Positions 7,866 through 52,877 of a stretch of DNA of 64,000 nt are shown here, piece after piece. The position numbers and the translations under genes were made by a program. The number at the start of each line of letters is the position of its first letter. The stretch's first letter is position 1. The stretch is taken from positions 496,001 through 560,000 of the forward strand of contig CATQHT010000001.1 of the NCBI GenBank assembly GCA_958296045.1, given 5' to 3'. Source of the stretch: Rhodothermales bacterium (GTDB taxonomy: Bacteria > Bacteroidota > Rhodothermia > Rhodothermales > Bin80). The notes beneath the pieces were generated by a model. It was not told the origin of the DNA. It did not search any database and saw only the letters and a program-made list of their open reading frames with translations.

Positions 7866-7871
7866 GTATTC

Positions 7872-16326: not shown

Positions 16327-16669
16327 CGATGGCTCCTGCTGGCTCGAACTGATCAATGTTCTCGGTTGGTGACCGATGCGCTTCCGGTGACCGTTTGTGC
16401 TGCATATGGTATTGCTTCGATTTATAGAGGCCCAGGGAACAAAGCTAACGCTCTATATTACGGAAACTTGCCAACCTATGCGCGCGTCCGACGCGGCTGC
16501 TGTGAGCCGAAAGAAGTGCGACTGTCGTCAGAGATTCCGATATTTGTCGGTGTCTCACCTTCACTTCTGCCTGCAGACTGGTGGCGAGCGGCCACGCGGT
16601 TGCCAACGTTAGAACGGTGAGTCATTGCTGGGTATGGCATGCATTTCTAAAGAGATAGCTGGTGTTGAT
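16327..16669. promoter_or_regulatory. Divergent upstream region between helicase operon and STAND gene
   Basis: These 343 bp separate the start codons of two large defence genes read in opposite directions, so promoters for both must lie here or nearby. I found no protein-coding frame and no obvious operator palindrome. Individual -35/-10 boxes could not be assigned with confidence. Confidence 0.45.
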
Positions 16670-22561: not shown

Positions 22562-22624
22562 GGAAGGAATCGGTGAGATGCGTATCTACGGGCAGGATTG
22601 TTCACCTGTCAACACGCATTCATT

Positions 22625-24112
22625 ATGGTTACCGATCAGCAAGTCAAGCTCCTGTTCAAGCTCGTTAACGGGAAAAAGAGGGCACGATCAACGGCTGCGG
22701 CGAAGGCTGGTATGTCCGAGAACACCGCACGCAAGTACCTGCGTGCGGGCAAACTGCCGAGTGAGATGAAGACCGAGCGAACGTATCGCACGCGTCCCGA
22801 CGCGTTTGCGGAAGTATGGGGCGAAATACTGCCCTATTTGGAGGAGAACCCTGGGCTGGAGGTCAAGGCTGTGTTCGAGCACTTGCAGCGTCGCCACCCT
22901 GGCCAGTTTCAGTCGAGTCAGCTGCGCACATTGCAGCGGCGTGTGAAGCGGTGGCGAGCCGAAGCGGGTCCTGGGAAGGAGGTCTTCTTTGACCAGGCAT
23001 ACGAACCTGGTGAGCGGGCGCAGTCGGACTTCACCTGCATGAACAAGCTGGGCGTGACCATCCAAGGCCAGCCGTTTAAGCATATGCTGTTCCACTTCGT
23101 TTTGCCCTACTCCAACTGGGAGGCGGGTACGATCTGCACGTCTGAGAGCTTTGAGGCGCTAAGTGAGGGGCTGCAGAATGCGCTCACGCAGCTGGGTGGT
23201 GTGCCCCGGCTGCACCAGACCGACTCTATGAGCTGTGCGGTACGCAATCTAAAGCGTACCGAGAAGGAGGGAGCCCCCTTTACCGACCGATATGGTGCTC
23301 TGATGCGGCATTACGGGATGGAGGCGCAGCACACGCAGCCACGGCGCCCCAACGAGAACGGGAAGATTGAGCAGAGTCACTTTCGGCTCAAGCGCGCGAT
23401 CGGTAACCAGCTCGCCTTGCGGGGCAGTTCGGACTTTGAAAGCAGGCAAGAATATGAGGCATTTCTGGCCAAGGTGTTTGCGGGGCGCAATGCTAATCGA
23501 GAGGCCCGTCTCAAAGAGGATCAGGCCAAGCTGCGCTCGTTACCCGCGCGGCGCCTGAACAGCTATCAGCGCAGACGTATGCGCGTGAGCAAGGGCGGGT
23601 TGGTCCGCGTGAAGAAGAACTGGTATTCGGTTAATAGTCGGCTGATCGGGGAGCTGGTGGATGTACGGATTTATGCGGAGCGGATCGAGGTGTGGTATGC
23701 GCAGCGGCGCGTGACGCAGATGCCACGGCTCCACGGCACAGGTAAGGCTCGGGTCGAATACCGCCATGTGATTGACATGCTGGTGCGCAAGCCTGGAGCC
23801 TTTGCTCATTATCGGTACAAGGCCGATCTATTTCCGTCTCATACGTTTCGCATGGCGTATGACGAGCTAAAGCGTGTCCACTCGAGCTCGCTTGCGGCCG
23901 ACAAGCAATACCTGCGCGTGCTGCATCTGGCGGCCAAAGAGAGCGAAGCCGCCGTATCTGCTGCGCTTAGCCAGTTGCTCAATAGTACGCAGCCGCTTAC
24001 GCTCGTTTCGGTAAAGACGCTCATGAATCAAGAGATTGAGGAGCCATCGGTGCAGGTTTGTGCGGTGGATCTGAGCGCCTATAATAGCCTGTTACACCAC
24101 GAAGCGCAATGA
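22625..24112 (+). CDS. istA: IstA transposase (IS21 family)
   Basis: The 495-residue protein starts at MVTDQQVKLLFKLVNGK. It has an N-terminal helix-turn-helix (AAKAGMSENTARKYLRAGKL) and then an rve/DDE integrase core. Catalytic acidic residues are plausible at FDQAYEPGERAQSDFT, at RLHQTDSMS and in PRRPNENGKIEQSHFRLKRA, the last fitting the glutamate motif. The C-terminal region ending in VDLSAYNSLLHHEAQ is intact. Length is normal for IstA. The TGA overlaps the istB ATG (ATGA), the standard IS21 arrangement. It should be able to act, although it would need a working IstB. Confidence 0.93.
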   Translation: MVTDQQVKLLFKLVNGKKRARSTAAAKAGMSENTARKYLRAGKLPSEMKTERTYRTRPDAFAEVWGEILPYLEENPGLEVKAVFEHLQRRHPGQFQSSQLRTLQRRVKRWRAEAGPGKEVFFDQAYEPGERAQSDFTCMNKLGVTIQGQPFKHMLFHFVLPYSNWEAGTICTSESFEALSEGLQNALTQLGGVPRLHQTDSMSCAVRNLKRTEKEGAPFTDRYGALMRHYGMEAQHTQPRRPNENGKIEQSHFRLKRAIGNQLALRGSSDFESRQEYEAFLAKVFAGRNANREARLKEDQAKLRSLPARRLNSYQRRRMRVSKGGLVRVKKNWYSVNSRLIGELVDVRIYAERIEVWYAQRRVTQMPRLHGTGKARVEYRHVIDMLVRKPGAFAHYRYKADLFPSHTFRMAYDELKRVHSSSLAADKQYLRVLHLAAKESEAAVSAALSQLLNSTQPLTLVSVKTLMNQEIEEPSVQVCAVDLSAYNSLLHHEAQ

Positions 24113-24909
24113 AGACACTGACCACCGCGCAGCTGGACCGTGCGCTGCGTGCAGGCTAGAAGGAGCTTCGTTTGCCGAGTATGCGCGACGGCTACCGGGA
24201 TAGGGCGGACTTGGCTCGACGAGAGTCTTTGAGCTTTGAACGGTTCTTGTGGGAACTGGTCGAGACGGAGGTGCACACCCGCCGCAACAACCGGATACAG
24301 CGCTGGCTCCGGGAATCCGGGCTACCACTGGAGAAAACCATGGACACGTTTGACCGGGGTCGGCTGCCAGTTCGAATCGATCACCATGTGAGCGTGCTCC
24401 TAGAAGGTGGCTTTCTGGATCGCAAGGAGAATGTGCTGGCCTTCGGTCCTCCAGGCAGCGGAAAGACCCATTTGCTGTGTGCGCTGGGCCGGGAGCTCAT
24501 CTTTCAGCACCGCCGCGTGAAGTTTTATCGCTGCGGCATGCTCGTCCAGCAACTACTCGCCGCTAAGCGCGACCTGCGATTACCGCAGATGCTGAAGCGC
24601 CTGAGGCGATACGAGGCGCTGATCCTGGACGACATCGGCTACGTACAGCACAGCCGCGAAGAGATGGAGGTCTTGTTCCACTTGCTGGCCGAACGCTACG
24701 AACGCGGCAGCATCCTGATTACCAGCAATCTCGCCTTCAGCCACTGGGAAAGCATCTTCAAGGATCCGATGACCACCGCCGCTGCCATAGATCGCATCGT
24801 GCATCACAGCGTGATCCTGGAGCTCAACCTGCCCAGCTATCGACTGGAAGCATCCAGGCAGCGGCAACAAGCCCAGCATAAACCTAGCATTAACACAGCA
24901 GCCCCTTAG
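24109..24909 (+). pseudogene. istB: IstB helper ATPase with in-frame amber codon 17
   Basis: The natural start is ATG 24109, overlapping the istA stop. After 16 codons (MKTLTTAQLDRALRAG) an in-frame TAG lies at 24157-24159, and the same frame then continues without a break to 24909. The remainder is a full AAA+ helper: Walker A GPPGSGKTHLL, Walker B LILDDIGYV and sensor ITSNLAFSHWE. A restart at ATG 24181 (MRDGYRD), or at a TTG at 24172, could still give a nearly complete protein lacking only the N-terminal tail. So this is either a nonsense mutation, a tolerated restart, or a base error in the assembly. Confidence 0.85.
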
Positions 24910-26723: not shown

Positions 26724-28070
26724 CTAGCTACGTTGGCCCTGCTTGCACTCGAGCTCGAATTTACCGAGGTCGGCGTCAGCGAAGGCCATTCCCCCGGCGT
26801 TGCACAGGTCGTGCTCAAACATGGACAGCAGTGCTGGGGCGTTTCTAACGTCATCGAGCGCATATCTCGGAAATCTAGTCTCGCCGTGCGGAAGCTGGCC
26901 TCCGAACCGGCTGCCCAAAACAAGACTCATATCCCGGTTACGGGTCGAACCCACTACCACAGGTACTTTATTGCCTCTGACGTGCACCGCGGCCTGCACA
27001 GCGTATTCCGCTCTCCCAGCATTAGCGTAACGGCGTAGCGAATCAGCCCAGCAGATCACGTGCGCAAGCGCCTGAACGGCGAGATGGGAGCTCAGTATGC
27101 CAATGTTCGCGCCATTCATTACAGCCAGCCAGCCACACTCGACAAGGCCATCGCAGTGAAGTTCGAGGTAGTGGAAGTACAGCCAGTCTGGCAGCGTGTC
27201 GTATTCTGGGCGACTTCTGGCAGCACGGAGCTGGGGATTCCACCCAAACTGGCCTATACTGTTGAAGATGTCGGATTCATACATCACGGTAGGATCCCGA
27301 TCCGGTAACCGGCGCTTCACGGTGACCTTCGGTGTATTGAGCCCTTCAACGAGTTTGGAATACGGACCACAAATCGTCTGGAGACGGATGTCGTCCCCAA
27401 CAGGCACAGCCGTGACCCGTATTCCGTAGGCATTGCCTGGCGACGTAAGCCGCACGAACTCGTGCTCAAACCTAGCCGCTCGCTCTTGCAGCTTCTTGTC
27501 CATCCGTTCGAGGCCCCGGGTTACGTTCAGCGTCATATCTTGGATCTCGCGCATAGACATTTCCTCGCTTCGGTCCCATCGACGGACGGGACAGATCCAC
27601 GTTCCCTTGATGCGGTGCGGCGCAAGCCGAGACCGACCAGGGATCCGGAACACTACGACCCCCTCACCACCTTCATCTGTGACCACTGCGAGAATGTCGC
27701 ACGAAGGCAGCTTCGGCTCCACTCGGTCACGGAATATGCCCCGGAACCGTTCAGCCAACACCTCACAATTCGGGATCGGACAGATGGCTTTCGCCACGGG
27801 CGGCGTCTCGTCCTTGCTCTCCTCAATACCCAAGACAAGCACGCCACCGTACGCGTTGGCGAAAGAGACCACCTCCTTGAGGATCTTGTTCTTGGCGTGA
27901 CGGCCGATCTCTAACTGACCATGCATCCACGGATCTCGGTTATCTTTCCCTTTCGCAGGTAGCTCCCTTTTGAACTCCATTCGCTCACCCTCTGGAATGT
28001 GCGAAGTCACCAGTGATTTGATATCATCGGCGGTGATCAGGTCGACAGACTTGGATATTATAGCGGTCAT
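26724..28070 (-). CDS. AlbA_2 (Schlafen-type) domain protein, probable defence gene
   Basis: Start taken at ATG 28070 (MTAIISKSVDLITADDI), giving 448 residues; a longer frame reaches 28142. Residues about 25-125 form an AlbA_2/divergent AAA_4 domain: EGERMEFKRELPAKG, KILKEVVSFANAYGGVLVLG and FRDRVEPKLPSCDI. Near residue 165 is HRIKGTWICPVRRWDRSEEM, the usual end of that domain. The rest is an unrecognised mixed domain with a coiled stretch (TRGLERMDKKLQERAARFEHE). AlbA_2 proteins include tRNA-cutting Schlafen relatives and accessory proteins of defence islands. It lies between IS elements, and a small same-strand ORF ends 30 bp before it. Function is unproven. Confidence 0.78.
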   Translation of the reverse strand: MTAIISKSVDLITADDIKSLVTSHIPEGERMEFKRELPAKGKDNRDPWMHGQLEIGRHAKNKILKEVVSFANAYGGVLVLGIEESKDETPPVAKAICPIPNCEVLAERFRGIFRDRVEPKLPSCDILAVVTDEGGEGVVVFRIPGRSRLAPHRIKGTWICPVRRWDRSEEMSMREIQDMTLNVTRGLERMDKKLQERAARFEHEFVRLTSPGNAYGIRVTAVPVGDDIRLQTICGPYSKLVEGLNTPKVTVKRRLPDRDPTVMYESDIFNSIGQFGWNPQLRAARSRPEYDTLPDWLYFHYLELHCDGLVECGWLAVMNGANIGILSSHLAVQALAHVICWADSLRRYANAGRAEYAVQAAVHVRGNKVPVVVGSTRNRDMSLVLGSRFGGQLPHGETRFPRYALDDVRNAPALLSMFEHDLCNAGGMAFADADLGKFELECKQGQRS

Positions 28071-28099
28071 TGCTCGATAACTCCCCCATTGCGGGTGTC

Positions 28100-28396
28100 T
28101 TAGTGGTGTCCCGGTTTCCCGAAGCAGTCGGTCCACTGACATGTCGCCCAGCCAGCAGACAAATCCTCAATCTGCTCTCGTTCCGTCCGTATGGCCTTCT
28201 TTTGCTTGTCGAGCCGAATACCAATGTCGCGGAGGACGCGTCTGACGAGCCGCCGCAGGTTGGCACATACGTACTCGCGGAGCAACTCGGCGATCAAGAC
28301 ATAGTTCCGTTTAGTCTCGATCAACTCGCGTATGATGTTCCACAGCATCTCGCTGCTGAGGACCCGCACGGCGCTGTCGTTCGTCTCAACTATCAC
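28100..28396 (-). CDS. Small hypothetical protein, 98 residues
   Basis: An open frame just upstream of the AlbA_2 gene on the same strand, ending 30 bp before it. The N-terminal 75 residues are Leu/Arg/Glu-rich and likely helical (LLREYVCANLRRLVRRVLRDIG). The last 20 look random. Its 5' end abuts an IS3 remnant, so it may be the truncated end of a larger gene. I do not recognise it. Confidence 0.35.
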   Translation of the reverse strand: MIVETNDSAVRVLSSEMLWNIIRELIETKRNYVLIAELLREYVCANLRRLVRRVLRDIGIRLDKQKKAIRTEREQIEDLSAGWATCQWTDCFGKPGHH

Positions 28397-29333: not shown

Positions 29334-31244
29334 TCAGAGGGAGAGCTGGAGCAGAATGCCACGCAGCATGCTGAGCTTGGCCTGGTCGGTGCCCTCGTCC
29401 AACAACGGCATTAGACCCTCAAGAACCGCTGCCCGATCTTCGCCCAAAGCCTCCTCGGCGACGTCCAATCCCAGCCGCAGCGCCTGTAGTACTTCGGCAT
29501 TGAGCCCGTTACCACGCTCGAGCTGGTCAGCATAGGCGCGCGCAACCGGAAAAGAAGCCGACCACCTATAAGCGGGCTGCCCCTGGGCATTGAAATAGTC
29601 AAGCTGAACCGTGTTGGCAGCCTCGATCTCGTTGGCCGTCAAATACTCGCTTGGCTCTAGGCGAAAAATGTCCAAGCCCCGGGCGATCTCGCTGCTTACT
29701 ATGAGGCCGTTGTACCAATAGACGGACCAGCTACCAGCGCTCTGCATGCGCTCCGCATCGGCCGGGCCACGGTCATGGTAGGCGATTTCCACCGGGTTCG
29801 ACGCATCGGTCCAGTCCATAAGAGATATCCCGCCCTGGTACCACCCCTGAATAAACAGGTCGCGGCCTGGCACCGGGATAAGCGAGCCGTTGTGCGCTAC
29901 GCAGTTCTCCAAGCTCGTCTGTACCGCCGGGAGCTTGTAGTAGCTCGCGAAATGCATTCTGGAGTCCGCATCGATAGTGAAAATGGCGTTAGCGCCCCAC
30001 TCTGGAGGATCCGAGGCTCGACACTTGGGTCCGCCACCGCCACCCCACTCGTCCGTGAAGACGACCTTGGAGCCGTCATTGTTGAAGGTGGCCGAATGCC
30101 AGTAAGAGAAGTTGGAGTCTGCTACCGCTTGGATACGTACGGGGTTGATCGGGTCGGTGATGTCAAGGAGTAGGCCATAGCCACCACAAGCGCCACCAGC
30201 AAGACCGATCTCGGGATACAGCGTGATGTCGTGGCACTGCGTCGGTCCGCGCCGCGCCTGCGGGATGATGCCGCGCGCCCGGTTGCGGGCCGCCATAAAG
30301 TCCGGCAAGGCCTCCCTGAAGTCAGCGCTGTCCTGAGCTGTGGGGTCCCCTTCCCTGCCTTCGTCTTCCATCCACTGACGCATATATGCGGCCACCTGAC
30401 GGTCGCGCAGGATGCGCGGCTGACCCCGTACCGTGGTTACGAAACGGCCTTGGGCCCGCGCCTCTTCCGCTGCCTCAAAGTCCGCAGGAGAAGGACCATG
30501 ACGCGGAGGTGCATCAAGGTCGTCGAAGATGCGCGGAGAGCTCACAACAGCAGCCTGCGACGGATCGTCTAGCGGCACACGAATCACCTCAATCCGAAAT
30601 AGCGCTGTGTTGGGATCCTCTTCAGGCATCAGGCCCGAGCATCCTTCAAGCTCTTCGCTCGGCCGTACCGGCGCCGATCCAGAAACGTAGATATAGACGT
30701 TGTCGTCGTCTGACGGGTCTTTAAGGACGGAGTGCGTATGGGATCCGCGACAGGTCTGGACATTCGCCACATACTGCGGATCCGTGACATCGGTGATGTC
30801 AAAGATGCGGATGCCACGCAGCCGCTCATGGCTGACTCGCTCCTGCACCCCCTCGGTGCCGCAGTCCAGGCGTCCCCCCAGCCCCTCACCGCTGACAAAG
30901 AGTAGATCCCCGTATACCGAGACATCGCTCTGCGACGCAGGGCACAGGAAATCCTTCACCAGAGTCGGCACTTCTGGGTTGGTGATGTCCCAGACGATGA
31001 TGCCGTTGTAGTTGCCCTGAAAGACATAGTTGTCCTTGAAAGCAAGGTCCGAATTGGTAACCCCGACAAAGGCTTCTGGGGGCTGCACCGTAGCCAGCTT
31101 GCTAAGGTTCCAGATAGCTTCTTCTGCATCGAAGAGGCCCGCAGCCAAGCCTTCGCGAGGGTCCATAGCCTCCTGCGCTACCACAGGCGGCGCAATGAGG
31201 AGGATAGCAAGGACAGCAAGAGTGGCAGGACCGAAAGTGCGCAT
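29334..31244 (-). CDS. Secreted LVIVD-repeat protein, paralogue 1
   Basis: Start at ATG 31244 gives 636 residues; a TTG at 31271 is weaker. An N-terminal signal peptide (MRTFGPATLAVLAILLIAPP, cut after VVAQ) sends it out of the cytoplasm. The body has LVIVD-type propeller blades: NYNGIIVWDITNPEVPTLVK, RLRGIRIFDITDVTDPQYVA, GYGLLLDITDPINPVRI and GGISLMDWTDASNPVEIAYH. Conserved Cys, His and Asp residues occur in QCHDITLYPEIGLAGGACGG and VAHNGSLIPVPGRD. It is a close relative of the next upstream gene, 29 bp away. Function of the family is unknown; a cell-surface or periplasmic binding propeller is the safest guess. Confidence 0.85.
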   Translation of the reverse strand: MRTFGPATLAVLAILLIAPPVVAQEAMDPREGLAAGLFDAEEAIWNLSKLATVQPPEAFVGVTNSDLAFKDNYVFQGNYNGIIVWDITNPEVPTLVKDFLCPASQSDVSVYGDLLFVSGEGLGGRLDCGTEGVQERVSHERLRGIRIFDITDVTDPQYVANVQTCRGSHTHSVLKDPSDDDNVYIYVSGSAPVRPSEELEGCSGLMPEEDPNTALFRIEVIRVPLDDPSQAAVVSSPRIFDDLDAPPRHGPSPADFEAAEEARAQGRFVTTVRGQPRILRDRQVAAYMRQWMEDEGREGDPTAQDSADFREALPDFMAARNRARGIIPQARRGPTQCHDITLYPEIGLAGGACGGYGLLLDITDPINPVRIQAVADSNFSYWHSATFNNDGSKVVFTDEWGGGGGPKCRASDPPEWGANAIFTIDADSRMHFASYYKLPAVQTSLENCVAHNGSLIPVPGRDLFIQGWYQGGISLMDWTDASNPVEIAYHDRGPADAERMQSAGSWSVYWYNGLIVSSEIARGLDIFRLEPSEYLTANEIEAANTVQLDYFNAQGQPAYRWSASFPVARAYADQLERGNGLNAEVLQALRLGLDVAEEALGEDRAAVLEGLMPLLDEGTDQAKLSMLRGILLQLSL

Positions 31245-31273
31245 GGTAAAACGGATAGTTCTGTTGGGCAATA

Positions 31274-33190
31274 CTATTGGGCCAGGGCGTTGAGGGTCTC
31301 TTTTAAGAGCGCCGCCTTGTCGGTATCCTGGCTTGTGTCCGCCAAAGTCGCGACATGATTGAGCATCTGCAGCCGGTCATTGCCCTCTGATGCATTCGCC
31401 TGGTACAATGCGGCACGAGCCTCAACCACCGCCGTTGCGGTAAGCGATCCCCCGCGCTCCAGCTGATCAAGGTAGGCGTGCGCCAGATAGAAGGTCGATG
31501 GCCACCGGTACATGGGCTGCCCCTGGGCGTTAAGGTGATCCAGCACGACCGTGTTCGAAGCCAGAATCTCGTTTGCCGTCAGGTGGGCGCTCGGCTCAAG
31601 CCGGAAGATGTCCAGCCCACGCGCGATTTCGCTGCTGACGATAAGCCCGTTGTACCAGTACACGGACCAGCTGCCGCCCATCTGCATCTGCTCTGCACTC
31701 ACCGGACCGCGGTCGTGGTAGGCGATCTCTTTAGGTGCATCAATGTCGGTCCAGTCCATCACGGAGATGCCGCCCTGATACCAGGATTGCACAAACAGGT
31801 CGCGACCCGGCACAGGGATGAGCGATCCGTTGTGCGCCACACAGTTCTCCTGTGATGTCTGCGGCGCGGGAAGCTTGAAATAGCTCCTGAAGGCCATCGT
31901 ACCATCCTCTTCCAAGTTGAATAGCGCGTTGGCACCCCACTCCATCGGGTCGTCGGCCCGGCACTTGGGGCCTCCACCTCCGCCCCACTCGTCGGTGAAC
32001 AGGATCTTGGATCCGTCATTGTTGAACGTGGCCGAATGCCAGTACGAGAAGTTGGAGTCCGCTACCGCATCCAGGCGGTACGGATTGATAGGGTCACGAA
32101 TGTCAAGCAAGAGCCCGTAGCCTTCGCACGCCCCGCCCGCCAGGCCGATCTCTGGATACAGCGTGATGTCGTGGCACTGCGTGGGACCGGGCGCAGGCCC
32201 ATCGTCCTCCTCGTCTCCACCATCCGCGTCAGGGCCCGCCATCATGGTCTGCATATCTGTGAGCGCCTCCCTGAAGTCGGCGGAGTCAGCGGCGGTCGGG
32301 TCGCCTTCGCGCCCTTCTTGCGCCATCCACTGCCCCATAAAGTGACCCACGTACTGGTCCGGCAGGACGATCGACTGCCCCTGATGCACAATAATGAATG
32401 CGCCTGCTGCACGAGCTGCTTCCACTTCCCGTATGTCGGCTGGAGACATGCCATGGGACGGAGCAGCAACCAAGTCTTCGAAGATGCGCGGTGAGCTCAC
32501 GATGGCCGCCTGCGTGGGATCCCCCAGCGGCACCTTGATAACCTCTATGCGAAACAACGCCGACTCGGGGTCCTCGTCGGGGGCCAGATCCGAGCAGCCT
32601 GGCAGCTCTTCGGCTGGCCGCACCGGCGCGGAGCCCGACACGTAGACGTAGACATTTTCGTCATCCTCGGGGTCCTTTAGCAGCGAATGCGTATGGGAGC
32701 CCCGGCATGTCTGCACGTTGGCTACATACTCGGGACTGGTGATGTCCGAGATGTCAAAGATGCGGATGCCACGCAGCCGGTCCGCGCTGACTTGCTCTTC
32801 GACGCCCTCTGTACCGCAGTCCAGGCGTCCGCCGAACCCCTCACCGGAAACAAACAGCAGATGCTCATACACCGATACATCACTTTGTGACGCTGGGCAC
32901 AGATAGTCTTTCACCAGGACGGGCGTGGCAGGATCGCTGATGTCCCAGATAAGGACGCCGTTGTAGTTGCCCTGGATGGCATACTTATCCTTGAATGCTA
33001 GGTCCGAGTTGGTGACGCCCACGAAGGCTTCTGGAGGGAGCGTGGTCGATAGCTTCGACAGGTTCCAGATGGCCTCCTCGGCATCAAACAGCCCAGCGCC
33101 CAGGCCCACCCGCGGGTCATCGAGAGACTGGGCCGTAGTAGGCACGGCACAAAAGGCAAACAGGAGCGCTAAGCAAACGGTAGTGCGCAT
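31274..33190 (-). CDS. Secreted LVIVD-repeat protein, paralogue 2
   Basis: Start at ATG 33190 gives 638 residues with signal peptide MRTTVCLALLFAFCAVPTTA and the mature end at QSLDD. It matches paralogue 1 along its whole length, including the same propeller blades (NYNGVLIWDISDPATPVLVK, RLRGIRIFDISDITSPEYVA, GGISVMDWTDIDAPKEIAYH). The main difference is an acidic Gly/Asp/Glu loop (DADGGDEEDDGPAPGPTQ) where paralogue 1 has a basic stretch. The DUF305 gene ends 37 bp upstream. Tandem duplication followed by divergence is clear; both copies are intact. Confidence 0.85.
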   Translation of the reverse strand: MRTTVCLALLFAFCAVPTTAQSLDDPRVGLGAGLFDAEEAIWNLSKLSTTLPPEAFVGVTNSDLAFKDKYAIQGNYNGVLIWDISDPATPVLVKDYLCPASQSDVSVYEHLLFVSGEGFGGRLDCGTEGVEEQVSADRLRGIRIFDISDITSPEYVANVQTCRGSHTHSLLKDPEDDENVYVYVSGSAPVRPAEELPGCSDLAPDEDPESALFRIEVIKVPLGDPTQAAIVSSPRIFEDLVAAPSHGMSPADIREVEAARAAGAFIIVHQGQSIVLPDQYVGHFMGQWMAQEGREGDPTAADSADFREALTDMQTMMAGPDADGGDEEDDGPAPGPTQCHDITLYPEIGLAGGACEGYGLLLDIRDPINPYRLDAVADSNFSYWHSATFNNDGSKILFTDEWGGGGGPKCRADDPMEWGANALFNLEEDGTMAFRSYFKLPAPQTSQENCVAHNGSLIPVPGRDLFVQSWYQGGISVMDWTDIDAPKEIAYHDRGPVSAEQMQMGGSWSVYWYNGLIVSSEIARGLDIFRLEPSAHLTANEILASNTVVLDHLNAQGQPMYRWPSTFYLAHAYLDQLERGGSLTATAVVEARAALYQANASEGNDRLQMLNHVATLADTSQDTDKAALLKETLNALAQ

Positions 33191-33227
33191 AGTGATCAAG
33201 AGGTTGGTCAGTTTGAGTGTTGACACG

Positions 33228-33899
33228 TCAGAGGTCCATATCGCTTAACATCTGCTGCATGCGGGCGATTTCGGTGATCTGGTCCACATGGATGCTGGAC
33301 GCCAGCTTATATGCTGCCTCGTCCTGTGCGGCTCCGTCCTGTGCAAAAAGGTCTTCCACCATGGTGACGGCACCCTTGTGGTGCTGAATCATGTACTGCA
33401 AAAAGAGGCGGTCAAATGCGGCTCCTCGCGCGGCCGCTAGCTCCTCAAGCTGCGCCTGTGTCAGCATGCCTGGCATATGATGCGCCCCGTGGCCGCCGTG
33501 CTGGTGGCCCTGGTGCTCAGAGGCCTGGCCGTCCTTCATGTGAATCATGAGGTTAAGCCCCTCAATGTGCACCAGGGGAACTGCTTCGCCGCGATCGCTC
33601 AACCAAGTCTGCATAATGGATATCTCATCATTCTGCGCGTTGATGATGCGCGCGGCCAAGACCTCTACCGCCCGGCTGGCTCCGTTTTCAGGCGCCAAAC
33701 GCGACATGATGAGTGCTTGCGCATGGTGAGAGATCATGCCGACCATAAACTCCACGTCCGCCGGCGTGTAGCGCGACATCGCTTCTTTCTGGCGGGCCCA
33801 GTACAGTGCTTCCAGCTCTTCCGTGGAGTCCTGAGCCGCCAGGATGCCAGGACTCGCCGTAAGCAGCACGGCTGCCGCAATAACCTTTAGCAGAGGCAT
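33228..33899 (-). CDS. Secreted DUF305 protein with His-rich linker
   Basis: The start is ATG 33899 (a longer frame starts at 33980), because it begins with a signal peptide (MPLLKVIAAAVLLTASPG, cut after ILAAQ). The 223-residue protein contains two four-helix-type DUF305 halves: FMVGMISHHAQALIMSRL near residue 45 and FLQYMIQHHKGAVTMVEDL near residue 165. The HH pairs are the family hallmark. The linker EHQGHQHGGHGAHHMPGM is rich in His and suits metal binding. DUF305 proteins are ferritin-like-fold envelope proteins often linked to copper or other metals; metal identity is not shown here. It lies between the large surface protein gene and the LVIVD pair on the same strand. Confidence 0.88.
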   Translation of the reverse strand: MPLLKVIAAAVLLTASPGILAAQDSTEELEALYWARQKEAMSRYTPADVEFMVGMISHHAQALIMSRLAPENGASRAVEVLAARIINAQNDEISIMQTWLSDRGEAVPLVHIEGLNLMIHMKDGQASEHQGHQHGGHGAHHMPGMLTQAQLEELAAARGAAFDRLFLQYMIQHHKGAVTMVEDLFAQDGAAQDEAAYKLASSIHVDQITEIARMQQMLSDMDL

Positions 33900-33976
33900 A
33901 ACACGCACAAATTGTCTTGTCGTCGGGGTGAATATACAGCGCCTTGAGGTGGCAACTGGCTCGCGCCCACTCTTTC

Positions 33977-36900
33977 TCAAAACAGCGCACTTAGCTGCAT
34001 ACGTACCGTATGTATGGAGGGTGCTCCGCTTGGGTTCCGACCGTTGTAGGTTACCGTAGCCCGCATCACGCGGCTAAGCTGATACCACGAGCGGACCGAC
34101 CACAACAGTGAGCGGCCTGCGCCGCGCCCGTCCGTGAGCTCAAAGAAGGCCAGCCCGTGTCCGCTGGGGGCGCCCCGCAAGACAACGCTAGCCGCCTCTA
34201 GGCGCATGGCGACATTTATTCGTCCCGCCTGGGAATATTGCGCCTCAAGGGGCACCTTCCACAGCGTGCCGCGCGCCTCCCTTGCCTGTTTGGTCACGTA
34301 CGCCACGGTGAGGGTGGTTTGCAGCGCGGACGACGGGCTGTACGTGAGCGCGGGAGCGACCGTGCGCGTAGTGATGTCGTAGCTGCGGGACGCGAAGGCC
34401 TGACTCTCGGTGCGCCGTGTGCCTTCGGACACGGTGAGCCCCAGCGTCCACCGCTCCTGGGCCTTGACGCGGGCCTGGCCCCGGACCTCGTCCACAGCAC
34501 GCGACTCGGTGCCGGCTGCCAGCGCACTCAGGCTCTGGACATGCCGGTAGGATCCGCTGGCGGACCAGCGGGGGTGGCCCCTGAACAGATGCAGATCCTG
34601 CTGCACCGATAAAAGGCCCTTGAGCGTGTGGACTGGGCTCTGGAACGATCCCATCCGCAGCAGATAGATATCCAAGGTAGCGGGGTTGCGACTCTTCTCC
34701 TGCACATTGATCACTGTCCGCAAAGAGACGGATCGCAAGATACGCTGCCATCCGGCAGATGAACGTGACCATCGGCGCGCCGGGTCAAGCTCGAGTGCGA
34801 TCCGAGCCTGCAGCCCGGTCACAGCCTGCAATGAGTCAGAGGGTACCAGGGTTCTGACATAGTTGCCTTCGTCTTGGGTGGTTTCTGGGAGGAATTCGTC
34901 AAGCTCTGCCACTCCATTCCCGTTGGCATCGACCCAGACAAACTCTCCCAGCTCCGGGCCGGTGCGGATATAGATCTCCTGCAGTGACGGTGTACGTTCG
35001 GAGAGGGCTTCATAGTGCCAGTTCAGCTGTAGCGCGCGCTGCCAGGGTCGGAACCGCCCGGACCACCGAATCGCGGCCGCTCGGGTTACGCTGGTGGCGC
35101 CCGACTTGGTGAAGGCGCCTCCAATGCTTCGGCGTCGCACGCCAACGCGCCCTTCCATCGTCAGGGTGGGCGCCGGCTTCACATCAAAGTTGAAGTCCCA
35201 TGTCACCGCAGTGCTGTGTGGCACCAGTCGGCCACGTTGGACATGGCGCTCGATGCGCACATCTGACGATGCCCCAAACGCTCCTACTGGGGCATGCCAC
35301 CGTACCTGGGGGATGAGCTGCACATAGTCTTTGGATCCTCGTTCCAGGCTGTCCCTGTTGGCTGTCCAGAATTGCTTGTCCGAAAGCTTGATGCGCATCA
35401 GTGGCGCTAGGCGCTGGTCAAAGGCGCGGATGCCCAAGCGGATGTCCTGGCGCACCCAGCGACCGCTGGCCTGACGGCCTGTATCTTCGCTTCTTATCTG
35501 GATCCTGCTGTAGGATGCTGTCGGCCATCCGGCTTCCTGCAGTCGCACGGATAGTTCCTCCCGTCCTGCCCTGAACGCCTTGCCGAGCACAAGCGAGCCT
35601 GCTGTTGCCTCTATTGCTGAGGTCTTGGTGGCCTGCCATGTGGCTGTGGCTTCGTCTACGGATTCGCGCGCTACGCTAACGCGCTCGCGTGTGGCTGCGG
35701 TACGCTCTGAGTCCAGGTTCCACAGTCGTTCGAATTCTACGGGACGTATGCGGGAGAAGGCGCCGAAGCCGGCCCCTGTGTGGCGGCGGTGCCACTGCCC
35801 TGCCACGGTCCCCAGCCCAACGGACAAGGGGTTCAAACGTGCGCCAGCCAAGTAGGCGCTTGCACCATCGTCGCCCTTGTGGAGCCTAGAGAACCGGTTA
35901 GCATCATACCGGGAGCGGGCCCACTCGCCGAAAAGCTCCACATGCCGAATGGGCGACACCGAACCCCTCAGATCCAGCATGGTGTGCTCTGCGGGTCGGG
36001 GAACGATGCGCACCGGCTCATATTCCCCGTGACCGGTGCCGCGCCAAGTGAAAGCCAGTCCGTTAGTGGTCTGGCCCTGGCGCACATAGCTGCCCTGCCC
36101 CGCCTCCACGCGCGTGAAGTGGACGCGATAGACTTGGCCGCTCATCGGGCGGCTACTGACGGGCGCGAACACCTCATACATGGCGTCTGCGACTACCGTG
36201 TCGATGCGTGCATACTGCACGTAGGGAGCTTCCGGGTCGTAACTGACCGGTGTCGCCCCCGACCGTATGGCCAAAGAGTCGCCTGCAACCTGAAGGAGCG
36301 CTTCATCTTCGGCCGACAACCCGAAGGCTTCGCTCAGGGTCCGGCCATCCGCCTCGCGCAAATAGGTGGCCCCCAGCGTGGCACGCGCTGACCCCCCAGA
36401 GCGCTGCCATAACGAAACATCGGAGGTGGTGCCCAACAGCGTGCGAGAGAATTCTGTGGTACGGTACTGAAACTCTGCCACGATGCGGTTATGGCTGCGG
36501 ATCAGCCTGTTAGCGGTAAAGGTGAGCTCACCTGACGCGTAGTCGATGACGTAGTCGGCCGACCGGCCCCGCTGCATGCGCCGGCCGTCGAGGAAGATCT
36601 CTTCGGAGCCAGGGATGATGAAGATGAACTGTTCATTCTGCGCGCCGGTCAGGCGGTAGGGTCCCTGCACGCCGTCAGCAGAAGACAGCTTCTGGCGCCG
36701 GAACGTGCCGCGTGCTGAGGCGCCAAGCATCTCAAAAGACCCCTCAGCACTCGGCACCGGCAAGGGTGCTTGAAGGCCGACGCCCTGCACCTTGCGCCTG
36801 AGCTGTGCGAATTCTCCTGTCTCGAATCCTGCCTCAAAGTCGCCAAGCTCTGCGGTGCCGTAGGGGGATGCGACCTCTATATATACGCGGTCGAGCTCCG

Positions 36901-37492
36901 TCAGGCGCTGCGTGGTGCCTTCCGGCAGTATCGGGGTGCTTTCGTCTGTCAGCACGGCCTGCACGCGCACATCGCGCGCAACGTTGCCTGCTAGGCGTAG
37001 GCGAAGCCCGGACTCGATGATGGCATCCCTGTTGTTGCCAGCCAGGACGCCCCTGGTGATACTGCCGCTACGCGTCAGAGACATGCCTTGGCCCGCAGGG
37101 GGCACAAGCGTGCGCGGCGTCCCTGCTGCAGCGGTAGTATCGCTGCCCACGGAGTCGGCCACGACACGCACCAGCGGGCGCGTATACTGGTCTTTGATTC
37201 CGAGTCGCCATGTGCGGTAGTGCACCACCAGGGAATCGTTCTCGGTCGCTTCGGGGACCCAGAGTCTTCCGAAGCGATAATCCAAGACGTAGTCCGTAGA
37301 ATCCAGCTGCTGCTGGCCACGAAAGATCACCACACTTTGCGGCTGCACAAAGGAACGCAGGATGAAGGGCTGTTGCCCAGACAGTGTATCCGTGTAGGTA
37401 CCCAGGTCCTGGCTGGCGGCTGGGCGCGCCGCCAGCGCTAAGAGTAAGCAAACGGCCAAGCGACAGAGCATCTGCGTAAGCGTCTTGAGCAT
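33977..37492 (-). CDS. Very large exported protein, probable outer-membrane beta-structure
   Basis: Start at ATG 37492 (MLKTLTQMLCRLAVCLLLAL) gives 1171 residues with a signal peptide ending AASQ; a longer frame to 37588 has no signal at its start. The body has alternating short beta-strand patterns, many aromatic strand ends and few Cys. A domain at about 30-110 (PFILRSFVQPQSVVIFRGQQ) and GSEEIFLDGRRMQRGRSADY are followed by long amphipathic strands. The last residue is Phe (MQLSALF), the usual C-terminal signal of outer-membrane barrels. I infer an outer-membrane protein. An acidic Ca-binding-like turn (WVDANGNGVAELDEF) lies at about residue 850. Specific function unknown. Confidence 0.75.
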   Translation of the reverse strand: MLKTLTQMLCRLAVCLLLALAARPAASQDLGTYTDTLSGQQPFILRSFVQPQSVVIFRGQQQLDSTDYVLDYRFGRLWVPEATENDSLVVHYRTWRLGIKDQYTRPLVRVVADSVGSDTTAAAGTPRTLVPPAGQGMSLTRSGSITRGVLAGNNRDAIIESGLRLRLAGNVARDVRVQAVLTDESTPILPEGTTQRLTELDRVYIEVASPYGTAELGDFEAGFETGEFAQLRRKVQGVGLQAPLPVPSAEGSFEMLGASARGTFRRQKLSSADGVQGPYRLTGAQNEQFIFIIPGSEEIFLDGRRMQRGRSADYVIDYASGELTFTANRLIRSHNRIVAEFQYRTTEFSRTLLGTTSDVSLWQRSGGSARATLGATYLREADGRTLSEAFGLSAEDEALLQVAGDSLAIRSGATPVSYDPEAPYVQYARIDTVVADAMYEVFAPVSSRPMSGQVYRVHFTRVEAGQGSYVRQGQTTNGLAFTWRGTGHGEYEPVRIVPRPAEHTMLDLRGSVSPIRHVELFGEWARSRYDANRFSRLHKGDDGASAYLAGARLNPLSVGLGTVAGQWHRRHTGAGFGAFSRIRPVEFERLWNLDSERTAATRERVSVARESVDEATATWQATKTSAIEATAGSLVLGKAFRAGREELSVRLQEAGWPTASYSRIQIRSEDTGRQASGRWVRQDIRLGIRAFDQRLAPLMRIKLSDKQFWTANRDSLERGSKDYVQLIPQVRWHAPVGAFGASSDVRIERHVQRGRLVPHSTAVTWDFNFDVKPAPTLTMEGRVGVRRRSIGGAFTKSGATSVTRAAAIRWSGRFRPWQRALQLNWHYEALSERTPSLQEIYIRTGPELGEFVWVDANGNGVAELDEFLPETTQDEGNYVRTLVPSDSLQAVTGLQARIALELDPARRWSRSSAGWQRILRSVSLRTVINVQEKSRNPATLDIYLLRMGSFQSPVHTLKGLLSVQQDLHLFRGHPRWSASGSYRHVQSLSALAAGTESRAVDEVRGQARVKAQERWTLGLTVSEGTRRTESQAFASRSYDITTRTVAPALTYSPSSALQTTLTVAYVTKQAREARGTLWKVPLEAQYSQAGRINVAMRLEAASVVLRGAPSGHGLAFFELTDGRGAGRSLLWSVRSWYQLSRVMRATVTYNGRNPSGAPSIHTVRMQLSALF

Positions 37493-37595
37493 GTGCCGGT
37501 CATGGATGCGAATCCGCGTACACGCGCGCGAAAGGAGGCGCAATAGCGTGTGGTCGGAACTGTATCGCCAGCGCGTGTTCGCTACCACGACGGCC

Positions 37596-38674: not shown

Positions 38675-38839
38675 TTGGCCCACCCCTTGCGCCTCGAGAT
38701 GAGGCCAATCCGGGTCATGCAGGCAACGCCAACCGCAGCGGATTGGATGTTCAGAGGAACACGGTGCGCTAGATTCCCGTTGGCGGCCCTTGGTTCACGG
38801 GGGCTGTAGTTGCTTGGCCCACTCCGACAGGATCCACGA

Positions 38840-40897
38840 ATGACTGACAGCCCGAGCTCCGATCGTTACGTTATGCGGATTTCTCGTATGACGGTGGATA
38901 AGCTGGGGGTCCGCTTGTATGATCGCGTGAGCGCGGTTGTCGCCGAGCTCGTCGCCAACGCGTACGACGCGGACGCGGAGAACGTCGTGGTTCGGGTCCC
39001 GCTCGCGACCCTTCTGGCGCGCAAGAACCGAAAAACGGGGGAGGTGGAGGGCTACGGCTACACCATCGAGGTCGTGGATGACGGGCACGGGAATACCGAA
39101 CGAGAGGCTAACCACCATTTTCTGAGGGTCGGGAAGGATCGGAGGGCCGATTCAACTCAAGGCAAGCGGTCTAGGCGGAAGCGACGCTTGGTGATGGGAC
39201 GGAAGGGCATTGGTAAGCTCGCTCCTTTTGGTATCTGCAAGCGTATCGAGATCGTCTCCGTCGGAGGCAACAAGACGAAGGATGGCTACCCGGTTTCCCA
39301 CTTCGTCATGCCCTACGATAAGATCCTTACCGACGATGACAAGCCGGTCGCGATGGACGTAGGTGACCAAGATAGGACCTATCGATCGCAGCGGGGGACT
39401 ACGGTTCGGCTGATCGACTTCCTGCCGAAGAGGGTTCCGAATCAGGAGGTTTTTCATCGGCAGATGGCGCGACGATTCGGACTGCACCAGAACGGCTTCA
39501 AGGTTCGCGTCGAGGACACACGGAATCCCGGTGAGAACCCTCCGTTCGAGATCAGATCCCTTTCGATCCCCCTGATGGAAGGCACGCGCGTCGATGTATC
39601 CGCAGACCCGGTGCCGCTTCCAGATGAAGAGCGTAACCTGCCAGTGTCAGGGTGGATGGGACTCGCCAAGGGAGCCTACAAGAACGAGGAGATGGCTGGC
39701 GTTCGCATCTATGCCCGCGGGAAGATCGTGGCCACAACTCGGGCGTTCGGACAGTCGGCGGGATTCACCGGCGAATTCACGGTGCGCTCCTACCTCGTAG
39801 GCGAAATCCACGCCGAATGGCTCGACGAAGACGAAGGGGAAGACCTTGTTACCACGGATCGACAGGACATTCTGTGGGAGTCCGACTACGGGCGAGCGTT
39901 TCGAGAGTGGGGCACCAAATGGATCAGGCGGATCGCCGCTGCATCCCGGAAGCCTCGGCGAAAGAGGGTTGAACAGCTCTTTCTGGAAGCGTCTGGGCTG
40001 GAAGCTGAGGCCAGGAAGCGCTTCGCCGACGATGACATCGTTTCCACAGCCTTGGAGCTCGGAAAGCAAATCGGCCGCTTTGCCGCCGAAGACGAACTCC
40101 GGGACCTGGAGTATGTGGATGGGTTGACACAGGTCGTCCTCCCCGTGGTGCCCCATAAAGCTCTTATGGACGCCTTCGAAGTCTTCAACCAAGAGATGTT
40201 CGGCAAGGAGGGTGGGATAGACTCCCTTCTGGATCTTTTCTCGAAGACCCGGATTGCGGAGATAGCTTCGTACGCTCAGATCGCGGACCAACGCGTCAGG
40301 GCGATCCGTAAGCTTGAAAACGTACTCGGAGAAGGTGGGGCTGAGGAAGTACTCCAGCGGATCGTCGCCGACGCTCCGTGGCTGATCGAAGCGACATGGA
40401 CGCCGATCACGGCGAATCAAAGCCTGAAGCTGTTCGCGAGGCGGTTCGCGGTGTACTTCAAGGAGCAACACGGCGAAGAGGTGGTTTTCTCTATCAATCA
40501 CGGAGGTAAGCGACCGGATTTTACGCTCGTGAACCTCAGCCGCAAGCTTCACATAGTCGAAATCAGGGCGGTGGGACACCATTTCGCCAACGCCGACTGG
40601 GACCGACTCCACAACTATCTCGCGGCGTTCCGTGATTTCTTCGTCGAAAACCGTGAGCTCAGGTCGGAATTCCGCGACGAGTGGGTCGTCGACTTGGTTT
40701 GCGATGCCGTACGGATCACCGATCGAGACAAGGAGTCGGCGTACAAATACTGGCAAGAAACCAAGAGCCGAATCGAACGAATCTCTTGGAATGACTTCCT
40801 GGCGCGCGCCGTGCAGGCCAATGAGACTTTCCTGGACGCCGAGGATCGAATTCGCACCGAGGAGAGACGCCTGAACACCGATGTGTACTCGTCGTGA
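38840..40897 (+). CDS. MORC/MutL-like GHKL ATPase with PD-(D/E)XK-like C terminus, restriction-linked
   Basis: From ATG 38840 the protein is 685 residues. GHKL motifs: N-box VVAELVANAYDADAEN at about 33-48, G1 VVDDGHGN at about 84-91 and G2 GRKGIGKLAPF at about 127-137. These place it with the HSP90-like ATPases (MutL, MORC). Residues about 520-620 hold APWLIEATW, then KRPDFTLVNL and LHIVEIRAVG. The PDF..EI-x layout fits a PD-(D/E)XK or Shedu-like nuclease fold, with Arg where the catalytic Lys normally is. The stop overlaps the cytosine methylase start, so the two are translated together. MORC/MutL-type ATPases joined to Dcm and Vsr in restriction systems are a known theme. It probably acts as an ATP-driven clamp for the restriction step. 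Confidence 0.8.
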   Translation: MTDSPSSDRYVMRISRMTVDKLGVRLYDRVSAVVAELVANAYDADAENVVVRVPLATLLARKNRKTGEVEGYGYTIEVVDDGHGNTEREANHHFLRVGKDRRADSTQGKRSRRKRRLVMGRKGIGKLAPFGICKRIEIVSVGGNKTKDGYPVSHFVMPYDKILTDDDKPVAMDVGDQDRTYRSQRGTTVRLIDFLPKRVPNQEVFHRQMARRFGLHQNGFKVRVEDTRNPGENPPFEIRSLSIPLMEGTRVDVSADPVPLPDEERNLPVSGWMGLAKGAYKNEEMAGVRIYARGKIVATTRAFGQSAGFTGEFTVRSYLVGEIHAEWLDEDEGEDLVTTDRQDILWESDYGRAFREWGTKWIRRIAAASRKPRRKRVEQLFLEASGLEAEARKRFADDDIVSTALELGKQIGRFAAEDELRDLEYVDGLTQVVLPVVPHKALMDAFEVFNQEMFGKEGGIDSLLDLFSKTRIAEIASYAQIADQRVRAIRKLENVLGEGGAEEVLQRIVADAPWLIEATWTPITANQSLKLFARRFAVYFKEQHGEEVVFSINHGGKRPDFTLVNLSRKLHIVEIRAVGHHFANADWDRLHNYLAAFRDFFVENRELRSEFRDEWVVDLVCDAVRITDRDKESAYKYWQETKSRIERISWNDFLARAVQANETFLDAEDRIRTEERRLNTDVYSS

Positions 40898-42198
40898 GAG
40901 CCGTCAGCCTCTTCTCGAACTGCGGCGCCGGCGATGTAGGGTTCGCGTCCGCTGGGTTCCGGTTTCGCGTGGTGTCGGAGCTGGTTGAGAAACGTTTGGA
41001 GGTCGCTAGGCTGAATCATCCAGACGCTGTTCCGGTCTCTGGGGATCTTCGAAAAACGTGGCCCGTCGTGGTCGATTCCTTTCGAGAGGCGCACGGTTCG
41101 GAGGCCCCAGTGCTGCTGTCGGGCTGTCCTCCGTGCCAAGGCATGAGTTCGGCCAGAGGGGACCGCGGGAAAGAGAACGATCCAGACGCTGGCTCTCGCG
41201 ACGGTCGCAACCTACTCGTGTTGCCAATTGCCGAAGTCGCCAAGGAACTACGGCCAACCTTCGTTGTGGTCGAGAACGTGCCTGCGTTTCTTCGGCGAAG
41301 GGTTTGGGACCCCGACAGCACGACTCCCCTGTCCGCCGCCAAGATCCTCTGCAATCGCCTGAAATCTGACTACCGCATCTACGCAGTGGTCGTCGATCTA
41401 TGCGAATTCGGGGTTCCGCAGCATCGTTCGCGAGCGTTTCTGACCCTGGTGAGGAAGGACACCGATGCTATGCGTGTGCTTAGGAGGACCGGACGTGCGC
41501 CGTTTCCGGCTCCTACCCACGGAGGCCCGAATTCCCCAGACTTCGTGACGATTGATGACGCTCTGAGGAAGTCAGGCCTGCCCGCGCTCGATGCGGGATC
41601 CGCTAAGGGAGCGGCCGCGAGCGGTCAACCGATGCACCGAGTTCCCGTCTGGCTTGACCGGAGATACGAAATGGTGGCCGCGATCCCACCCGGGAGCGGC
41701 GCGAGCGCATGGGAGACGGATCGCTGTGGGCGATGCGACACGAGCGGCATCGCCTCCACCGAGGCCGTTTGTCCGAACTGCCAGAGCCGACTGCTTAGAC
41801 CGACCGTGCGAAACGAGGATGGATCGTGGCGGTTGGTCAAGGGGTTCCGAAGCTCCAGCTACCGCCGGATGGATCCGACCCGACCGGCCGCAACCATAAC
41901 GACCGCCAGTGGACATATAGGGAGCGACCGAACGCTGCATCCTTGGGAGAATCGGGTTCTCAGCCCGGCGGAATGCGGTTGGCTTCAGACCATTCCCAGT
42001 AGCTTCCAGTGGGGAGACTCGATCGACAATTGGGGGCCTACCGGTGTTCGTCAGATGATCGGCGAAGCTGTTCCACCGCTGTTCACGATGCTCCACGGCA
42101 GGGTCCTCGCAGCCTTAGCGGAGGGTTGCGATGTGCCAGAAGCTATTTCACAGGGCGACGGACGGTGCCAGAAGGCGTTGGCGAGACTCAACTCCTAA
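40894..42198 (+). CDS. C5-cytosine DNA methyltransferase with zinc-ribbon insertion
   Basis: The GTG at 40894 overlaps the previous TGA (GTGA), and the protein is 434 residues. Motif I is SLFSNCGAGDVGFASAGF, motif IV with the catalytic Cys is LLSGCPPCQGMSSARG, and motif VI is VVVENVPAFL. Motif VIII is QHRSRAFL, and motifs IX-X end with QMIGEAVPPLF. The target-recognition region contains CGRCDTSG and VCPNCQS, a four-Cys zinc-ribbon-like insert not usual in housekeeping Dcm. It methylates cytosine at the C5 position and protects host DNA. The downstream Vsr gene suggests repair of deaminated methylcytosine at the same site. The protein is intact; its recognition sequence is unknown. Confidence 0.92.
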   Translation: MRAVSLFSNCGAGDVGFASAGFRFRVVSELVEKRLEVARLNHPDAVPVSGDLRKTWPVVVDSFREAHGSEAPVLLSGCPPCQGMSSARGDRGKENDPDAGSRDGRNLLVLPIAEVAKELRPTFVVVENVPAFLRRRVWDPDSTTPLSAAKILCNRLKSDYRIYAVVVDLCEFGVPQHRSRAFLTLVRKDTDAMRVLRRTGRAPFPAPTHGGPNSPDFVTIDDALRKSGLPALDAGSAKGAAASGQPMHRVPVWLDRRYEMVAAIPPGSGASAWETDRCGRCDTSGIASTEAVCPNCQSRLLRPTVRNEDGSWRLVKGFRSSSYRRMDPTRPAATITTASGHIGSDRTLHPWENRVLSPAECGWLQTIPSSFQWGDSIDNWGPTGVRQMIGEAVPPLFTMLHGRVLAALAEGCDVPEAISQGDGRCQKALARLNS

Positions 42199-52223: not shown

Positions 52224-52877
52224 TTACATACTGTGCAATCGCCGGGTCAATGCGGCATGTACGACTAGGCTGAACGCGGAAAGCGCCACGGCTACTAGCA
52301 CCAGTCGCATCGCGGCTGACTCTTGGCCGACCTGGTTGATGCGCGTAAAGATAGCCAGAGGTATCGTACGCGTACGGCCGGGCAAGTTGCCGGCAAATAC
52401 CATCGTGGCGCCGAATTCTCCCACCGCTCGGGCAAATGCCAAAACAATGCCCGCTGCGATGCCGCGCGCTGAGAGCGGCAGCGTCACATGCCGAAACGCG
52501 GCCCAGCGGCCGCCGCCATAGACGTAGGCCGCCTCCTCCCATTCGGGGTCAATCTGCGCGAAGGTGACGCGCAGCGTCTGCACCAGTAGCGGAAATGCCA
52601 GCACGCCCGCCGCGATGGCCGCACCCATCGTAGTAAAGGCGACGCGCAGACCCAGTGGTCCCTCCGGGCCCAGTGCCATAAGGAGCAGCAGTCCCGTGAC
52701 TACAGGCGGCAGCACCAGGGGCAGCTGAACCACATTCTCTACGACAAACCGCAACGGCGATCGGCTGCGTGCCAGCCAGTATGCGATCGGTATGCCAGGC
52801 AAGAGGCTCAGACCAACGGCGGCCAATGCCACCTGCGCGGACAGTCCTAACACCGCCCATTCCTCTGGCGACAGCAT
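52224..52877 (-). CDS. modB: Molybdate ABC transporter permease ModB
   Basis: Start taken at ATG 52877 (MLSPEEWAVLGLS), whose A is shared with the modA stop (TGATG); a longer frame starts at 52925. The 217-residue protein has five or six membrane spans and the ModB landmarks PIAYWLARSRSPLRFVVENV, LPLVLPPVVTGLLLL and FARAVGEFGATMVFAGNLPG. The EAA loop (EEAAYVYGGGRWAAFRHVTL) contacts the ATPase. It forms the channel for molybdate or tungstate uptake. No modC gene for the ATPase is present beside it; a TPM gene follows instead. It is otherwise intact. Confidence 0.92.
   Translation of the reverse strand: MLSPEEWAVLGLSAQVALAAVGLSLLPGIPIAYWLARSRSPLRFVVENVVQLPLVLPPVVTGLLLLMALGPEGPLGLRVAFTTMGAAIAAGVLAFPLLVQTLRVTFAQIDPEWEEAAYVYGGGRWAAFRHVTLPLSARGIAAGIVLAFARAVGEFGATMVFAGNLPGRTRTIPLAIFTRINQVGQESAAMRLVLVAVALSAFSLVVHAALTRRLHSM

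Follow-up and report, generated by a model that had tools for sequence, protein, structure and literature searches.

The window examined here is a 64,000-nucleotide stretch of a Rhodothermales bacterium (GCA_958296045.1), positions 496001-560000 of CATQHT010000001.1, which is contig 1 of a 4.78-Mb genome whose nearest named relatives are Rhodothermales metagenome-assembled genomes (MAGs). Its minus strand carries a run of genes for a large surface protein, a DUF305 protein and two beta-propellers (A and B), for which a sequence-only reading had proposed a four-protein surface complex handling metal or redox chemistry. Our analysis shows that the conserved unit in this array is a two-gene module, DUF305 plus propeller. 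As their genes lie next to each other, with very few exceptions, in several groups of bacteria, the two proteins probably work together, and we propose that they probably cooperate in copper handling in the cell envelope or in copper-dependent chemistry there.

The presence of the two genes is tightly correlated across genomes. With thresholds of E ≤1e-40 for the propeller and E ≤1e-10 for DUF305, the propeller is present in 35 of 198 genomes of the phylum, all belonging to the window's class, and DUF305 is found in the same 35. Of the 49 genomes of that class, 35 carry both genes, 14 carry neither at the thresholds used and none is discordant; genomes scored as propeller-free still show weak matches (E 1e-4 to 1e-7) to other proteins. 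For every full-length DUF305 match in the 35 genomes (38/38, with two partial matches excluded from the count), a propeller lies no more than 544 bp downstream on the same strand. Scattering of the genes in relatives, which the sequence-only reading named as the finding that would refute it, is not seen for the DUF305 and propeller genes, which stay together. Within one genus, one genome (G077 in our numbering of compared genomes) is without both genes, and three (G153, G161, G172) have both. A divergent propeller paralog is accompanied by its own DUF305 gene in all three genomes checked (G019, G033, G043).

A single scan, of a collection covering 84,980 species, recovered 546 stretches encoding relatives of the propeller, and the best 79 were taken as named loci (L numbers), mostly from Rhodothermales, Balneolaceae and Gemmatimonadota. 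This set overlaps the genome set, as loci L032 and L033 are contigs of G002 and G006. A DUF305 match occurs in 77 of the 79, and in 76 of these it is followed by a same-strand propeller; in the other, L102, DUF305 comes after the propellers and runs off the contig end. Of the two DUF305-free loci, L061 begins at a contig edge and L077 is a lone copy whose MAG also holds a complete pair (L063). In a further set of 31 loci, two of which come from the window's own genome, all 29 relatives (L003-L031) have a DUF305 gene that precedes the propeller and shares its strand. The association reaches another phylum in Nonomuraea gerenzanensis, where two tandem propellers, one of them 36% identical to propeller A over 521 columns, adjoin a divergently oriented DUF305 gene. 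Two of the loci (L076, L094) come from MAGs labeled Gammaproteobacteria, and their propellers nest among Gemmatimonadota sequences, indicating mislabeled bins or transfer. Clustering of open reading frames (ORFs) over the 79 loci, with families listed if found in at least six loci, revealed no further gene family that generally accompanies the pair; the commonest true neighbor, an MFS-type transporter, is found in 12 of 79. An antisense family of 21 loci in the same clustering was set aside as a shadow frame of the propeller.

The DUF305 member of the pair (33228-33899, minus strand) is confidently assigned, matching PF03713 over its full length (model positions 1-151 of 151) with 136.9 bits against a Pfam gathering cut-off of 27, and it is the single DUF305 match in its genome at E up to 0.001. 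It scores 81.3 bits against the CopM family metallochaperone model NF049983 of NCBIfam, 9 bits under the cut-off of 90, and we thus term it CopM-like only; the same profile is matched by all 14 DUF305 proteins sampled, with a best E of 1.4e-26. A sequence search of the PDB identified 3bt5, 5fej (CopM itself, E 6.7e-8) and 2qf9 as relatives. Two MxxHH motifs, MISHH at residues 82-86 (33723-33737, minus strand) and MIQHH at residues 197-201 (33378-33392, minus strand), are kept in relatives, in which the motif occurs two or three times per protein (74/74 counted). H85, H86, H200 and H201, together with several Met residues, are invariant in 75 aligned DUF305 proteins including that of the window, three of 77 records having been dropped before these counts as miscalled at the start or cut short. 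The HH pairs noticed in the sequence-only reading, residues 85-86 and 200-201, are therefore conserved as parts of MxxHH; the His-rich linker that it also pointed to is indeed present between the two DUF305 halves (residues 150-168, 33477-33533, minus strand) but is not a conserved feature, as its length varies and its His count ranges from 0 to 13 among the relatives in which a pattern located it (62 of 74). MxxHH is a copper motif studied in CopM (PMC11836926; papers are cited by PMC accession), and CopM, which binds copper as Cu(I) and as Cu(II), influences its accumulation (PMC4335983). Like the window protein, Synechocystis CopM is exported and Met-rich and has a double DUF305 with MxxHH; its partner is the CopRS two-component system (copMRS), whereas the partner in the window is a propeller. 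A crude pattern count finds a lipobox in 25 of 75 DUF305 proteins and 38 of 94 propellers.

Propeller A (31274-33190, minus strand) comprises blades at approximately residues 53-552 followed by a C-terminal helical domain at 579-649. It exceeds the Pfam cut-off of 20.2 for LVIVD (PF08309) with 25.3 bits; propeller B, at 16.2 bits, falls below it and is assigned by its similarity to A. Neither reaches the NCBIfam cut-off of 100 for choice-of-anchor B (TIGR04312), with 64.9 bits for A and 58.5 for B, though all 42 propellers scanned match this model at E up to 0.001. An AlphaFold model of propeller A (mean predicted local distance difference test score, pLDDT, 82.5; predicted template modeling score, pTM, 0.83) is a propeller with seven blades by manual count, a helical insert at residues 262-330 and the C-terminal helical domain. 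In VIA-align, 967 of 969 chains aligned to it at Z of at least 8, with a best Z of 30 and a seven-bladed designer protein at Z 28.7. The large insert, the C-terminal domain and the strict DUF305 partner set the window propellers apart from other choice-of-anchor B / LVIVD proteins. With propeller A alone, a PDB sequence search gave no match better than E 0.015; its hits, antibody chains and putrescine-binding proteins, we regard as due to chance.

Within the class, the best copies of propeller A mostly share 62-79% identity with it, and one shares 52%, which we judge to be strong conservation for an exported protein. The Nonomuraea copies lack the helical insert and the C-terminal helical domain in the alignment; within the propeller, an alignment of 98 sequences has 122 columns with conservation of 97% or more in which both Nonomuraea copies carry the conserved residue. 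These columns include D75, D116, H178, H352, D353, H397, D412, E413, E460, H465, N466 and W520, as well as Cys at 110, 137, 211, 351, 367, 422 and 462; a further Cys, C174, is invariant in the 42 propeller sequences of a separate alignment (A3). H178, H352, H397 and H465, considered as a putative counterpart of the channel copper site of four His in methanethiol oxidase, are invariant in all 98 sequences. From the DSSP string of the model and the sequence, the conserved His and Asp residues lie near the starts of inner strands.

Combining co-occurrence, gene order, strand, predicted fold and residue conservation, all of which are computed directly, we tentatively favor, by analogy and at slightly less than even probability, a reading in which a CopM-like copper carrier serves a copper-binding or copper-dependent extracytoplasmic propeller; copper as the metal, its transfer from DUF305 to the propeller, and catalysis are what we infer. 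In this scheme an exported CopM-type DUF305 carrier, probably lipid-anchored in a good part of the relatives, would bind copper through its two MxxHH/Met-rich halves and serve one dedicated partner, the seven-bladed propeller outside the cytoplasm. The propeller would hold copper, or use it for catalysis, at its invariant His, Asp and Glu residues, with a putative site placed by sequence at the inner blade ends and formed by D75, D116, H178, H352-D353, H397, D412-E413, E460 and H465, with W520. The arrangement would work in the manner of methanethiol oxidase (SBP56/MTO), a copper-dependent propeller whose gene lies, like that of the window propeller, beside that of a putative copper carrier, the putative copper chaperone SCO1/SenC (PMC5739008); the human methanethiol oxidase provides an additional source for the copper-enzyme model of SBP56 (PMC10362175). 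The window pair differs from MTO in having no SBP56 family match, a chaperone of another family and no mauG-type neighbor seen, and searches of Pfam and NCBIfam at E up to 0.1 found no SBP56 match for either window propeller. As to substrate, a reduced-sulfur compound would be a guess by analogy with one DUF305-propeller pair (described below) in which the propeller gene is highly expressed on tetrathionate.

Several observations weigh against assigning copper to the propeller. Neither Pfam nor NCBIfam recognizes a copper enzyme family in it, and its closest solved fold is that of an organophosphate hydrolase with a binuclear metal center rather than that of a copper enzyme. The eight propeller Cys look like disulfides. 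Among the 79 loci no recurrent copper-type neighbor of the pair was seen, the clusters being judged by eye from their first residues. The pairing also has its exceptions, as 14 genomes of the phylum outside the class have DUF305 and none of them the window-type propeller, and no DUF305 lies in the 2.4 kb upstream of the L077 propeller.

Elsewhere, DUF305 genes keep company with copper-type genes or with propellers of other kinds. Outside the class we read eight DUF305 stretches, the best-scoring ones, from 7 of the 14 genomes. Four of the eight contain metal-type genes: a heavy-metal P-type ATPase in one, an efflux outer-membrane gene in two (one scanned, the other alike by eye) and a multicopper oxidase in one. 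In two others (L197, L202), both of one genus, DUF305 is followed after 3 bp by a YncE/YVTN-type propeller; of the remaining two, one has a Cys-rich gene resembling by eye a scanned DUF326 gene and one shows nothing telling. In Starkeya novella, 12 bp separate DUF305 from the gene for a YVTN propeller, whose expression on tetrathionate is high (PMC6527743). The gene order at L197:2668-5948 and L202:2585-5865, molybdopterin oxidoreductase - DUF305 - YncE/YVTN propeller (the L202 oxidoreductase judged by eye), resembles this Starkeya pair, which is linked to sulfite metabolism. In Myxococcus xanthus, the curA operon, which responds to copper, is listed with adjacent genes for a PQQ_2 lipoprotein and a DUF305 lipoprotein (MXAN_3417 and MXAN_3416; PMC3707914); as in the window, a repeat protein adjoins DUF305, but the repeats are of PQQ_2 type and the operon is a nine-gene copper operon. 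Nine plasmid records have a DUF305 match, and six were read (Nonomuraea, four Streptomyces and one Ornithinimicrobium); of the five actinomycete stretches other than that of Nonomuraea, two have DUF305 followed directly by an F510_1955 BNR-repeat protein and three do not. Metal handling as proposed in the sequence-only reading is supported, with copper singled out by the invariant MxxHH motifs, the CopM-like scores, the copper-type neighbors of DUF305 elsewhere and the Myxococcus operon, while its extension to a complex of four proteins is not. Whether DUF305 proteins are dedicated copper donors for extracytoplasmic propellers in general, making these a broad unrecognized class of copper propeller enzymes, is rather doubtful; such a class would span LVIVD/choice-of-anchor-like propellers (in Rhodothermota, Balneolota, Gemmatimonadota and an actinomycete) as well as YncE/YVTN, PQQ_2 and BNR propellers.

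The strongest competitor to the favored reading, which we hold to be rather unlikely, is copper sequestration at the surface without catalysis. DUF305 would bind copper outside the cytoplasmic membrane and the propeller would be a docking or binding scaffold that holds DUF305 or the metal. This agrees with the ability of CopM, which is partly extracellular, to prevent copper accumulation (PMC4335983), and with the metal-resistance genes that flank DUF305 in other bacteria. However, the propeller is more strongly conserved within the class than would be expected of a scaffold, and the named loci show no recurrent copper-resistance neighbor.

A second alternative takes the propeller to be a metal-dependent hydrolase using Mn, Ca or Zn, distantly like the Sphingobium TCM1 phosphotriesterase Sb-PTE, with DUF305 serving another part of the same response. 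Sb-PTE (PDB 5hrm/5ioj) is the top Foldseek match of the propeller (5hrm, E ~1e-11, the next match being at 1.9e-8) and the sole protein listed at E up to 10 when the propeller family profile is compared with the PDB. Like propeller A, it is seven-bladed with His at several blade starts by eye; if the blades are paired in order, His is found at the start of blades 3 to 6 in both, and a Cys...ENC pattern appears by eye to be shared. The ligand numbers of Sb-PTE, E201, H389, E407 and H475, match residues of these kinds in its own sequence after correction for numbering offsets. Nevertheless, the profile E-values, 0.15 and 0.28, are not significant, so the propeller cannot be placed in the Sb-PTE family by sequence. 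An hhalign comparison of the propeller family with Sb-PTE gave 64% and 69% with the register shifted by one blade, ranging from 6% to 70% by settings, and the 50 VIA-align rows listed contain general propellers at Z 28-30 and neither 5hrm nor SBP56, though absence from these rows excludes neither of them. As the sequence link is non-significant and the register shifts by one blade, we do not claim homologous metal ligands. For these comparisons the Sb-PTE gene and four further hits were taken from plasmid records, two of which (L113, L114) were used beside Sb-PTE for the profile comparison; no DUF305 is among the three features listed around the Sb-PTE gene in its incomplete gene table. The hydrolase alternative also leaves the strict DUF305 link unexplained, and we consider it distinctly unlikely; the likeness to Sb-PTE is best taken as a lead toward a metal-bearing channel rather than as family membership.

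The original proposal, a surface complex of all four proteins including the large outer-membrane protein, appears very improbable. ORF calling does place four long, consecutive minus-strand ORFs in the region of 29334-37492: 33977-37588 (1203 aa), 33228-33980 (250 aa), 31274-33226 (650 aa) and 29334-31271 (645 aa). By these calls the ORFs overlap by 4 bp or are 1-2 bp apart; with inner starts, at Met33 (37492) for the large protein, ATG 33899 (likelier) for DUF305, and ATG 33190 and 31244 for the propellers, the gaps become ~30-80 bp. A hydrophobic signal-like segment, read by eye, begins all four proteins, and the description of four exported proteins on one strand is accordingly borne out by tightly ordered genes. 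The large protein (33977-37492, minus strand) is exported, beta-rich and probably located in the outer membrane. It has no Pfam family at E up to 0.1 and a weak SprA-like stretch (20 bits against an NCBIfam cut-off of 200), and its AlphaFold model is unusable (pLDDT 41.8). In the window's family the gene order is in keeping with a larger complex, as 12 of 15 relatives have the end of the large-protein gene 727-826 bp ahead of the propeller match, with both on one strand; the exceptions are G010, at ~2.9 kb, and G004 and G013, where it is on another contig. However, homologs are encoded in all 59 genomes searched (the window's own included), 11 of which are without a window-type propeller, and outside the family the gene occurs in none of the loci with flanks, being located on other contigs or far off. 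This gene is spread over the whole order and stands next to the pair only in the window's family, so that it fails the scattering check passed by the DUF305 and propeller genes, and we reduce the complex to a two-gene module; the large protein is best read as a general envelope protein and a local neighbor, probably outside the module, rather than a partner.

The second propeller does not belong to the conserved unit either. Propeller B (29334-31244, minus strand) is 68-70% identical to A, and in a tree built by a quick method with midpoint rooting, the A copies and the B copies of three loci (that of the window, L032 and L033) form two supported groups (97 and 100) joined at a fork with support of 89. 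The tandem pairs in Balneolaceae (L073, L075) and several such pairs in Gemmatimonadota are separate from these groups, which indicates that tandem duplication arose repeatedly. Judged from this tree, the second propeller is a lineage-specific tandem duplicate, with independent duplications in several lineages; such repetition may suggest a benefit of dosage or the formation of hetero-oligomers. Mere co-inheritance of the DUF305-propeller pair as a block, without functional linkage, would fit the origin of most examined genomes in one class, but we give it almost no credence given that the genes are present or absent together across families and within a single genus and that their linkage is kept in Gemmatimonadota and, reoriented, in an actinomycete.

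Other genes of the window include defense and mobile elements. A Hma-type defense island on the minus strand (5028-16356) matches HmaC, HmaB and HmaA of PADLOC at E 3e-127, 1e-125 and 5e-194 and also holds a UvrD-type helicase with GajB-like scores. On the plus strand (38810-42198), a C5 cytosine methyltransferase adjoins a GHKL-ATPase protein that scores as a restriction enzyme of type II. An IS21-type transposase with IstB (22598-24909, plus strand), a group II intron maturase (47866-49236, minus strand) and a Fic/DOC family protein (58483-59652, plus strand) are also present. The gene for an AlbA_2/Schlafen-domain protein (26724-28142, minus strand) has the orientation of propeller B and lies ~1.2 kb downstream of it. 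A nucleoside symporter (518-1774, minus strand) and a solute-binding/permease pair (52224-53647, minus strand), presumably of molybdate type, lie far from the operon in the window. Look-alikes of these genes adjoin the operon in 8 to 12 related loci, suggesting that defense and mobile DNA have been inserted on both sides of it in the window.

In conclusion, the parts described here are known, while the strict two-gene module and its recurrence with several propeller families were not found described in the portion of the open-license PMC literature on DUF305 that was consulted. Searches of the open-license PMC literature found nothing on DUF305 with LVIVD and nothing on "choice-of-anchor B"; for DUF305 with a propeller they found the Starkeya paper, the other match being to DUF3050 and false. 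DUF305 is widespread and mostly unexplained, and a strict partner conserved across phyla provides it with a role that goes beyond copper resistance and can be tested. The propeller family, itself highly conserved, likewise gains a candidate cofactor. If the proposed role is true, these pairs would represent a hidden set of copper proteins or enzymes of the bacterial envelope.

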